DNA from: Pantoea deleyi
GTDB lineage: Bacteria > Pseudomonadota > Gammaproteobacteria > Enterobacterales > Enterobacteriaceae
Reading direction: 5' to 3'
Assembly: GCF_022647325.1 (NCBI RefSeq)
Contig: NZ_CP071405.1
Span: 1,674,001 to 1,738,000, forward strand
DNA: 64,000 nucleotides
Shown here: positions 8,372 to 31,851 of the stretch, piece by piece
How the letters are laid out: every line of letters starts with the position of its first letter
Position numbering within the stretch: position 1 is the first letter of the stretch
Translations under genes and position numbers: made by a program
The notes under the pieces: generated by a model
What the model was told of the DNA's origin: nothing
What the model saw: only the letters and a program-made list of their open reading frames with translations
The model's database searches: none

Positions 8372-8385
8372 TCGGATTAGTCCTA
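8372..8385 (-). promoter_or_regulatory. RcsAB box of flhDC
   Basis: On the minus strand TAGGACTAATCCGA fits the RcsAB consensus TRVGAAWAWTSYGA at 13 of 14 positions. It lies just downstream of the inferred transcription start, as the repressing RcsAB box does in E. coli and Erwinia flhDC. Envelope stress should therefore shut off flagella. Confidence 0.8.
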
Positions 8386-28912: not shown

Positions 28913-30643
28913 TTACATGCGCTCGACGGTGTCGATGCCCAGCGTATCCAGTCCCTGCTTCAACGTTTTCGCGGTCAGCGCGGCCAGCTGCAGTCGGCTC
29001 AGACGGATGGCCTCGGATTCGGCGCTGAGGATCGGGCAGTGCTCATAGAAGCCCGAGAACAGCCCGGCCAGATCGTAGAGGTAGGCACACATGACGTGCG
29101 GTGTACCGTCGCGTGCCACCTGCATGATGATCTCTTCAAACTGAAGCAGACGGGTAGCAAGCTGCGCTTCACGCTCTTCGCCAATCACGATCTCCGCATC
29201 CAGCGAATCGGCGTCGATGCCCGCCTTGCGGAACACAGAGAGGACGCGGGTGTAGGCGTACTGCATGTAAGGTGCCGTGTTGCCTTCGAAGGCCAGCATG
29301 TTGTCCCAGTCGAAGATGTAGTCGGTGGTGCGGCTCTTGGAGAGGTCGGCATATTTCACCGCACTGATCCCGACCACTTCGGCCAGCGCTTTCACTTCTT
29401 CTTCGCTCATCTCCGGGTTCTTCTCACGCACCAGCGTGTAAGCGCGCTGCCAGGCTTCATCCAGCAGATCGGCGAGCTTGATGGTGCCGCCGCTGCGGGT
29501 CTTGAATGGGCGGCCATCTTTGCCCAGCATCATGCCAAACGCGTGGTGCTCCAGCGGCACCGATTCCGGCACGTAGCCCGCTTTGCGGACGATGGTCCAG
29601 GCCTGCACCAGATGCTGATGCTGACGGGAGTCGATGTAGTAAAGCACGCGGTCGGCTTTCAGGGTTTCATAACGGTATTTCGCACAGGCGATATCTGTGG
29701 TGGTGTAGAGGTAGCCGCCATCCTTTTTCTGGATGATGACGCCCATCGGCTCACCTTCTTTGTTCTGGAACTCATCCAGGAACACCACGGTAGCGCCTTC
29801 ACTCTCGACCGCCAGGCCTTTCTGCTTCAGATCGGCAACGATGCCAGGCAGCATATCGTTGTAAAGGCTTTCCCCCATCACATCGTTGCGCGTCAGCGTG
29901 ACGTTCATCCGATCGTAGATCTTCTGGTTCTGACTCATGGTGATGTCGACCAGCTTCTTCCACATCTGACGGCAGTATTCATCACCACCCTGCAGTTTCA
30001 CCACGTAACCGCGTGCGCGCTCGGCAAACTCGGGATCTTCGTCATAGGTCCGTTTAGCTTCACGGTAGAAGCCTTCGAGATCGGCGAGGGCCATCTCGGC
30101 GTGATCTTCATTCTGCTGCTTTTCCAGGAACGCAATCAGCATACCGAACTGCGTGCCCCAGTCGCCGACGTGATTGGCGCGGATCACGTTGTGACCGAGG
30201 AACTCCAGGGTACGCACCGCCGCATCACCGATGATGGTGGAGCGGACGTGGCCGACGTGCATCTCTTTCGCCACGTTTGGCGCAGAGTAATCCACCACAA
30301 TGGTCTGCGGTTCAGCCAGCTGCACGCCCAGACGCGGCAGGGTCAGCGCTTCGCGGGCATGTTTTGCCAGCCAGGCGTGGTCAAGGAAGATATTGATGAA
30401 GCCCGGGCCGGCAATTTCAACTTTACGGGCGATACCGGTCAGATCGAGGTGCTGAATCACCGCTTCCGCTAACTGTCGCGGAGCCTGTCCCAGCTTTTTC
30501 GCCACGGCCATGATGCCGTTAGCCTGATAGTCTCCAAACTGAACCCGTGCGGACTGACGAACCTGTGGTTCGCAATCGGCGGGTGCGCCGGCTAAAACCA
30601 TTGCCTGACTGACTTTTTCGGAAAGAAGTGCCTGAATATTCAC
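28913..30643 (-). CDS. argS: Arginyl-tRNA synthetase
   Basis: Class I synthetase charging tRNA-Arg, 576 residues (E. coli 577). The N-terminal Add-1 domain recognises the tRNA D-loop. The HIGH-like signature is HVGH in [17 protein letters not shown]. The KMSK position is replaced by the [14 protein letters not shown] region, as usual for ArgRS. The C-terminal helical anticodon-binding domain ends in the GIDTVERM tail. The gene stands alone on the minus strand, with an AT-rich gap of about 650 bp upstream that contains a small membrane-protein gene. Confidence 0.97.
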
Positions 30644-30853
30644 CGCGTTACCTTCATGTGCTGAACAACGCCCTGCCTGCGAAGCCGGGCTGTCATCATC
30701 TTGCCTGAACCGAGCACGTCACCGGAACAGCGAAACGGATGCGGCAGACAAAACGGAAAAAAATGAGGGGAAAAGTATACGTGAAATGTCAGTGGGCGTC
30801 AGTAGTTGGATGAAGTGGGGAAACAGAGCTGAATAAGATGTTTCCCGGAGGCG

Positions 30854-30976
30854 TTAACGACGTCGTAAGTGACGGCGAGGGTTCTTTACGCTTTTATCTT
30901 CACGCACCTTCCAATGGCGGGAAATTGCAAATCCCATCAGTGCGATAAGGACAGCGACAACGATGAGCATAGACAT
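30854..30976 (-). CDS. 40-residue single-span membrane protein, unrecognised
   Basis: An ATG with AAGGA about 10 bases upstream opens a 40-codon frame. The product has a hydrophobic span at residues 3-18 (LIVVAVLIALMGFAIS) and a strongly basic tail rich in Arg and Lys, ending RRHLRRR, so the C-terminus is expected in the cytoplasm. An ATG at codon 3 is an alternative. The upstream region has a TATAAA -10 (31009-31014, minus strand) and an Rcs-type palindrome about 57 bp before the predicted start. I know no named homologue. The reading frame, ribosome-binding site and control signals together make it a likely real gene. Confidence 0.65.
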   Translation of the reverse strand: MSMLIVVAVLIALMGFAISRHWKVREDKSVKNPRRHLRRR

Positions 30977-31008
30977 AGAGCCATTCCTTTTGGTTGTGTT
31001 AGGTCAAA

Positions 31009-31014
31009 TTTATA
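31009..31014 (-). promoter_or_regulatory. -10 element of the 40-residue membrane protein gene
   Basis: TATAAA on the minus strand gives a start near 31002 and a leader of about 26 nt. The -35 is weak (TTGCAG with a 15-bp spacer), as expected of an activator-dependent promoter. Confidence 0.5.
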
Positions 31015-31051
31015 GGAAGGTGGTGAGGGCTGCAATTGTTTATGTTCCAAA

Positions 31052-31065
31052 TAAGAGTTATCTTA
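31052..31065. promoter_or_regulatory. Rcs-type palindrome 1
   Basis: TAAGA-GTTA-TCTTA is a perfect inverted repeat matching the RcsAB/RcsB consensus (TAAGAATATTCTTA type). Its arms extend to AATAAGA/TCTTATT. It is centred about 57 bp upstream of the inferred start of the 40-residue protein, a position typical for Rcs activation. Confidence 0.65.
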
Positions 31066-31067
31066 TT

Positions 31068-31194
31068 GTATAAAAGAAAGCCATATTAATCATACGATTA
31101 TAGTACTTTCATCAAGAAATTCATGGTCCTAAACAGAAGATAAATCCGAAATGAAAGATGTTATTATACGGTTTTGCGTTAAATTTCGGGTCAA
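31068..31194. other. AT-rich spacer between argS/small gene and yecM
   Basis: AT-rich DNA between two Rcs-type palindromes. A smaller inverted repeat, TAATC-ATAC-GATTA, lies near 31089-31102. No open frame with a ribosome-binding site is seen. The composition would suit H-NS binding. Confidence 0.4.
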
Positions 31195-31195
31195 A

Positions 31196-31209
31196 TAAGA
31201 TGAATCTTA
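31196..31209. promoter_or_regulatory. Rcs-type palindrome 2
   Basis: TAAGA-TGAA-TCTTA, the same arms and spacing as the palindrome at 31052. A TATAAA (31256-31261) downstream could be the yecM -10, placing this box about 65 bp upstream of a yecM start. It might therefore serve yecM, or act as a second site for the divergent small gene. Confidence 0.6.
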
Positions 31210-31290
31210 TCATTATGTGGCGCTCAGCAGGCGGCGCACAATAAACCAGACTGATTATAAATGCTAAACAAATTATGAGGAATCGGGGCA

Positions 31291-31851
31291 GTGAAGAGAT
31301 CTTTTCCGACAGAATTGGATGATTTAAAGACAGATTTAGAACGTTTTGAAGAATCGTTGCTAAATTTTGCGCAGCGACTGGGTTTACGCCTTAACGATCT
31401 GGAAATCGACCACATTGCCGTGCGTTGTCACCAGGAGACCACCGCAATGCGCTGGCAGCAAGGCTTGCAGCAGATTGGTCATCAATTTTCAGCAGCCACG
31501 ATCAACGGACGGCAGATTTGCCTGTTTAAGCTGCATGATCCACTGCGGATAGCCGATCGGGAGATCGATGTGGTGGAGCTGCCGTGGCCGGGCGAAAAAC
31601 GGTATCGCCACGAGGGCTGGGAGCATATCGAGGTGGTGCTGCGCGGCGATCACCAGACGCTGGGAGTGCGCGCCATGGCGTTGCTGTCAGACGAGGCGCT
31701 GACGCAGCCGGGGATCTCGTTCAAAACCAGTGCCCCGCAGGGCGAGAATGAGCGCCTGCCCAATCCGACCCTGGCGGTAACGGACGGGCAGACGACCATC
31801 AAGTTTCATCCGTGGCGACTGGAAGAGATTGTCGCCAGCGAACAGGGCTAA
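31291..31851 (+). CDS. yecM: YecM, VOC/glyoxalase-fold protein
   Basis: A 186-residue cytoplasmic protein matching E. coli YecM, whose structure resembles vicinal-oxygen-chelate metal enzymes; its substrate is unknown. Segments seen are IDHIAVRC with a likely metal-binding His, ICLFKLHDPL, DVVELPWPGEKRY and GWEHIEVVL, plus NPTLAVTDG near the C-terminus. The start is GTG with GAGGAA upstream. Its stop overlaps the stop of the convergent aminotransferase-like gene by 4 bp. Confidence 0.9.
   Translation: MKRSFPTELDDLKTDLERFEESLLNFAQRLGLRLNDLEIDHIAVRCHQETTAMRWQQGLQQIGHQFSAATINGRQICLFKLHDPLRIADREIDVVELPWPGEKRYRHEGWEHIEVVLRGDHQTLGVRAMALLSDEALTQPGISFKTSAPQGENERLPNPTLAVTDGQTTIKFHPWRLEEIVASEQG

Follow-up and report, generated by a model that had tools for sequence, protein, structure and literature searches.

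Rcs is a main envelope-stress system of the Enterobacterales, and it is known largely from E. coli and Salmonella. The RcsAB consensus is reportedly due to Wehland and Bernhard, and the RcsAB-box promoters of flhDC and rcsA are the described systems that most resemble the locus reported here. Among small proteins the nearest comparison, made by description, is MgrB, a PhoP-induced single-span protein with a periplasmic part. Stress-induced small single-span proteins such as MgrB and AcrZ often act by binding a larger protein in the membrane.

The locus lies in the argS-yecM gap of a 64-kb window (the whole stretch of Pantoea deleyi DNA that was analyzed) and consists of a 40-codon open reading frame (ORF) preceded by Rcs-type boxes. 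Its box shares with those of flhDC and rcsA, within the same genus, the form of a 14-bp near-palindrome and the same kinds of half-site; unlike them, it is centered approximately 58 bp before an inferred transcription start and would control an apparently undescribed small membrane protein. As with MgrB, a small single-span protein appears to be placed under a stress phosphorelay, but the tail of the protein described here is basic and probably cytoplasmic. What appears to be new here is a conserved target gene of the Rcs type.

The small gene and its predicted product

The ORF shares its strand with argS, which lies downstream, and diverges from yecM:

30854-30976, minus strand: 40-codon ORF, predicted single-span membrane protein with a basic C-terminal tail (from conservation and profile searches)
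30984-30989, minus strand: Shine-Dalgarno sequence AAGGAA, 7 nt 5' of the ATG, kept in the genus alignment
28913-30643, minus strand: argS, downstream of the small ORF
31291-31851, plus strand: yecM (PF06185), divergent neighbor of the small ORF

Translation of the ORF yields the 40-residue product MSMLIVVAVLIALMGFAISRHWKVREDKSVKNPRRHLRRR. Residues 3-19 form its most hydrophobic 17-residue stretch, with a mean hydropathy of 2.84, and residues 20-40 carry a net charge of +8 (histidines left out of the charge). A sequence-only reading of this DNA had proposed a single-span protein with a basic tail in the argS-yecM gap, and these values, which are themselves predictions from sequence, bear it out; placement in the inner membrane is very probable. 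The same reading had called the protein unannotated. This is only partly right, since some relatives are present in databases, some labelled 'hypothetical protein' and one 'FeoB-associated Cys-rich membrane protein'. A Pfam and NCBIfam profile search with the window's protein returned no family above the cut-off. The FeoB-associated family, PF12669, matches weakly over the span (E 0.0075) but was rejected as an identity: the score is 16.9 bits against a 27-bit cut-off, the protein has no cysteines, and its neighbors are argS and yecM, not feoB. Matches to DUF2162 and to a phage holin model are weaker still. A literature search, weak in that most subscription papers lie outside its coverage, returned no description of the gene, nor of the gene as an Rcs target. 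The protein apparently represents an undescribed family of small membrane proteins.

By DNA search, 59 of the 60 genomes examined from the genus contain the region. Of these 59 loci, 57 have an intact frame of 39-40 codons; of the two broken copies, one has lost its stop codon (G041) and the other is frame-shifted (G014). Among 54 forty-codon copies from the genus, variable codons are mostly synonymous; variation is free at residue 37, more limited at residues 2 and 36, and nearly absent elsewhere. Because the frame is intact in nearly all genus loci and change is mostly synonymous, we regard the ORF as a real gene, and the synonymous pattern led us to reject a chance ORF. Among the 47 loci of a separate collection, carriers identified by name include Pantoea agglomerans, P. 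ananatis, P. stewartii, Mixta and Winslowiella.

Searching the order with a single sequence returned same-genus copies only (4/295) and by itself would point to restriction to the genus, a picture that profile searches corrected. Relatives from other genera emerged with the first profile. A wider second one had hits at E<=1e-3 in 71 of the 392 sampled genomes, which represent 29 of the 154 genera. By our own count, the gene adjoins argS in 26 sampled genera other than that of the window, with yecM on the opposite side where the locus reaches that far. Conservation of the frame, a check that the sequence-only reading had named, is thereby found both within the genus and well beyond it. Named sources of these relatives include Serratia, Erwinia, Brenneria, Gibbsiella and Symbiopectobacterium. 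In the family consensus a leucine-rich span is typically followed by (Y/F)A(I/L)-x-RH-(W/F)-K-x-R; the C-terminal ends are basic across the family (for example RRR, KKR or KKH).

Two further genera stand apart. The match in genus g216 is weak, lies within a longer frame and is probably due to chance. Genus g160 holds a distant relative elsewhere in the genome, outside the argS slot; two of its four loci (L223, L239) have a box scoring 10 of 10 (by the pattern described below) at 89 bp before the start, and L221 and L222 are without a good box. Judged by eye, the neighbors of L223 and L239 resemble LuxR-type genes. An E. coli counterpart was rejected at the DNA level and for this locus. DNA searches with positions 30854-31290 against an E. 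coli collection, and with the L239 relative against E. coli, gave no match, and the 215-bp argS-yecM gap of E. coli K-12 contains neither an annotated gene nor a box, the best box score there being 7 of 10.

Boxes and promoter upstream of the gene

The elements found between the ORF and yecM are the following:

31052-31065, minus strand: P1, Rcs-type box TAAGATAACTCTTA, an exact palindrome, conserved (plus-strand letters TAAGAGTTATCTTA)
31196-31209, unstranded: P2, Rcs-type box, TAAGATTCATCTTA on the minus strand (plus-strand letters TAAGATGAATCTTA), genus-only
31136-31149, minus strand: P3, weaker element resembling a box, TCGGATTTATCTTC, with a genus-conserved core and of uncertain significance
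31030-31035, minus strand: -35 element TTGCAG (ATTGaa in the family consensus), separated by 17 bp from the family -10
31007-31012, minus strand: -10 element TAAATT at the family position, with ungapped conservation in 54 non-genus orthologues

The sequence-only reading had pointed to two upstream palindromes of the form TAAGA-N4-TCTTA, 144 bp apart. Both are exact and the spacing is right; the 57 bp given for the nearer one has to be corrected, since P1 ends 75 bp before the ATG. P1 and P2 are the only exact matches in the 64 kb (shuffle mean 0.01) and two of the eight in the 4.68-Mb genome. Dinucleotide shuffles of the 314-bp gap between the ORF and yecM gave at least one palindrome in 14 of 20,000 rounds and two in none of the 20,000, in keeping with the earlier statement that the duplication is unlikely by chance. 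When up to two mismatches are allowed, the window holds 8 matches vs 7.7 expected, so only the exact form stands out. Six exact palindromes lie elsewhere in the genome, and their neighbors include no clear Rcs target, except perhaps at G000:C3:34434-34447 (L070). The gene near this last palindrome looks, by eye, like AriR/YmgB, a family tied to Rcs signaling.

A first box pattern, fixed from the genus boxes before any upstream region outside the genus was viewed, found a box beginning 79-94 bp before the start in 21 of 25 loci outside the genus. The pattern was slightly widened once this outcome was known. By the widened pattern, 54 of 56 distinct non-genus orthologues, which share ancestry and are not independent events, score at least 9 of 10, and 33 of them score 10; L210 and L237 score below 9. 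The 56 were obtained from 81 family loci by leaving out 5 that are not in the argS slot and 20 that duplicate the protein of another locus. Shuffled controls reached a mean of 1.35 and a maximum of 5 in 200 rounds, six other upstream windows gave 1-7 of 56, and the reversed and the complement-only patterns gave 7 of 56 each. Three hundred permuted patterns averaged 1.5 of 56, with one at 32 of 56, which means that a similar AT-rich pattern can mimic the score. Each of the 26 argS-slot genera has at least one locus with a box of 9 or 10. Among the 59 genus loci, 58 have a P1 that reaches 9 or more out of 10. Conservation of the near box, likewise named as a check, is found in both sets, and chance palindromes were rejected on the shuffle tests together with the box in the orthologues.

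In the 54 boxed orthologues outside the genus (the two low scorers being left out of the alignment), the near box begins 79-102 bp, or roughly 90 bp, 5' of the start codon. An ungapped alignment of these promoters, anchored on the box, reveals three conserved blocks, namely the box followed by AA, an ATTG -35 and a TAnnTT -10, with a spacer of 17 bp between the two hexamers. The -35 and -10 blocks had no role in the choice of boxes, yet they align without gaps. In the window, a TATAAA beginning 2 bases upstream of the TAAATT overlaps it (31009-31014, minus strand). The center of P1 is about 58 bp before the inferred transcription start, about where activators commonly bind, and conservation of only the first half of the -35 (ATTG) suggests dependence on an activator. 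Judged from these alignments, the near box is a conserved promoter element of the small gene. One genus locus, L060 of G012, carries a 34-bp deletion between P1 and the -10 that places the box at -55 and removes the -35 region.

P2 also scores at least 9 of 10 in 58 of 59 genus loci, at exactly 144 bp from P1 in 55 of 59, and has no fixed counterpart outside the genus. Its letters in many relatives are TCGGATTCATCCGA. Within the genus, conservation at the center of P2 extends past the bases contacted by RcsB (GATTCATC in 35 of 59 loci, GAATCATC in 10). Symmetry holds between positions 2 and 13 in 42 of the 59 loci (C..G 25, A..T 17) and between positions 3 and 12 in 41 (G..C 22, A..T 19), the remaining loci being asymmetric at those pairs; the symmetric pairs suggest selection on the dyad. 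The distance from P2 to the start of yecM, measured in 58 genus loci, is 79-82 bp in 56 of them, much like the 76 bp between P1 and the ORF in the window. As a proposed second box of the small gene, P2 is thus present and exact but carries less weight, being genus-only and as near to yecM as P1 is to the ORF. Given its genus-only fixation and this distance, P2 may serve yecM; that P2 alone acts on yecM is conceivable, if somewhat doubtful. Further strongly genus-conserved stretches occur between P2 and P1, at 31070-31150 (AGG-x-CCA; near TTACTTTATGAAAGTGAC in many relatives).

Proposed assignment to Rcs and competing explanations

The window contains its own positive control:

8372-8385, unstranded: flhDC Rcs-type box TCGGATTAGTCCTA, 227-240 bp before flhD (8612)

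This box is one of five places in the window at which the widened pattern scores 10 of 10. It is present in 29 of 29 genus loci, at 235-244 bp before flhD in 28 of them; in G012 (L269) it lies 421 bp before flhD. Boxes of the form TRAGA-N4-TC(C/T)TA are found 290-307 bp before rcsA in all 30 genus loci examined, drawn from 58 genomes matched and not including the rcsA upstream of the window's own genome. Many of these rcsA upstreams (L075-L104) also have extra box-like sites near -470 (e.g., TCAGACGATTCCTA) and -540 (e.g., TGAGGAAATTCTGA). The half-site variants of P1 and P2 (TRAGA, TCGGA, TCAGA) also occur before flhDC and rcsA in the genus, where both count as Rcs targets by orthology. In the RcsB-flhDC DNA crystal structure (PMC5829831), RcsB contacts A, G and A (A-x-G-A) of each half-site. 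The corresponding bases of the right half-site occur as T10 in 54, C11 in 54 and T13 in 50 of the 54 boxes, counts that are inflated at scored bases because the boxes were chosen by score. In the left half-site G4 is kept, and the first contacted A is found in only 20 of the 54. The Rcs box pattern recognized in the sequence-only reading holds in silico, with a conserved box at a fixed promoter position and half-sites that match those of the flhDC and rcsA boxes.

The genome of the window encodes both rcsB and rcsA, and 58 of the 60 genus genomes have a match to rcsB and 58 to rcsA, some of the latter with stops or truncated. The rcsA match of G012 is in two pieces with an in-frame stop. There is no rcsB match in G014, where the small gene is frame-shifted and rcsA is a remnant only, or in G051, which has no match to the region. 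Absence of rcsB alongside a damaged or absent small gene fits joint loss in these two genomes, both of which are reduced and have lost much else. In G041 rcsB is present although the small-gene copy lacks its stop codon. On these comparisons, a conserved gene for a small, predicted membrane protein with an Rcs box is strongly supported. Binding of RcsB or RcsAB at the box is highly likely, and activation rather than repression likely.

The operator of some other dimeric regulator with a TRAGA-N4-TCTTA-like site could resemble these boxes, and the conservation of the P2 center beyond the contacted bases would suit such a protein. However, half-sites of these kinds also precede flhDC and rcsA in the genus, and the bases contacted by RcsB are among the most conserved of the right half; a regulator other than RcsB is quite improbable. 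It is also very improbable that the boxes mainly regulate yecM, with the small ORF a bystander. The steady distance from P2 to yecM in the genus speaks for such an arrangement, but outside the genus it is the distance from box to ORF that is maintained, whereas the gap between ORF and yecM varies from 280 to 505 bp and the yecM side lacks any fixed box.

An arginine leader peptide that attenuates argS might look like this ORF, which precedes argS in the same orientation and has RRR at its end. The tail is, however, KKR or KKH in many genera, conservation spans the whole protein and not the Arg codons alone, and the hairpin 3' of the ORF has no T tract and is ordinary (z -1.06; 28 of 200 shuffles as good). 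Furthermore, argS has a promoter-like site of its own:

30774-30802, minus strand: sigma-70-like promoter of argS, CTGACG-17-TATACT (1 found vs 1.6 expected in shuffles, not significant alone)

The stretch 30753-30802, which includes this site, is matched separately in several genus genomes. With neither a conserved regulatory-codon run nor a terminator before argS, an aaRS or amino-acid leader peptide was rejected, and attenuation of argS is extremely unlikely. TisB- or Hok-like peptides, which are induced by stress and damage the membrane, are similar in length, single span and basic tail. Against this, the residues are in our opinion more conserved than such peptides would lead one to expect, and a known RNA in the window was rejected, as an Rfam search of the window at gathering scores returned no match; a toxin of this kind is improbable.

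Proposed mechanism and implications

The preferred reading, that this is a genuine gene whose promoter is activated at P1 by phosphorylated RcsB, alone or with RcsA, is quite likely. Envelope stress would pass through the Rcs phosphorelay to give phosphorylated RcsB, which, alone or together with RcsA, would bind P1 and recruit RNA polymerase to a promoter whose -35 is poor. Activation would then yield more of an inner-membrane protein of approximately 40 residues with one span, its N-terminus predicted to lie outside and its basic tail, by the positive-inside rule, in the cytoplasm. The protein might bind and modulate a larger inner-membrane protein through the span and the conserved terminal RH-x-K-x-R motif, a step that we propose tentatively, as the best guess at its action, by analogy with other stress-induced small membrane proteins. 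That the partner is the Rcs apparatus itself (IgaA, RcsC or RcsD), which would make the protein a feedback peptide comparable to MgrB acting on PhoQ and a dedicated, long-conserved Rcs output in Pantoea, Erwinia, Serratia, Brenneria and relatives, is the boldest version and an unlikely one. If that feedback reading were true, absence of the gene from the argS-yecM gap of K-12, the main Rcs model, would explain why it was overlooked.

The small gene is probably an unstudied product of the cell-envelope alarm system in Pantoea, Erwinia, Serratia and their relatives. If the assignment is true, Rcs would have an output that is conserved widely, under a rigid promoter of the Rcs type in 27 sampled genera, and that is unseen at this locus in E. 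coli. As both a promoter and a knockout target, the gene would offer a handle on how Rcs output acts on the membrane.
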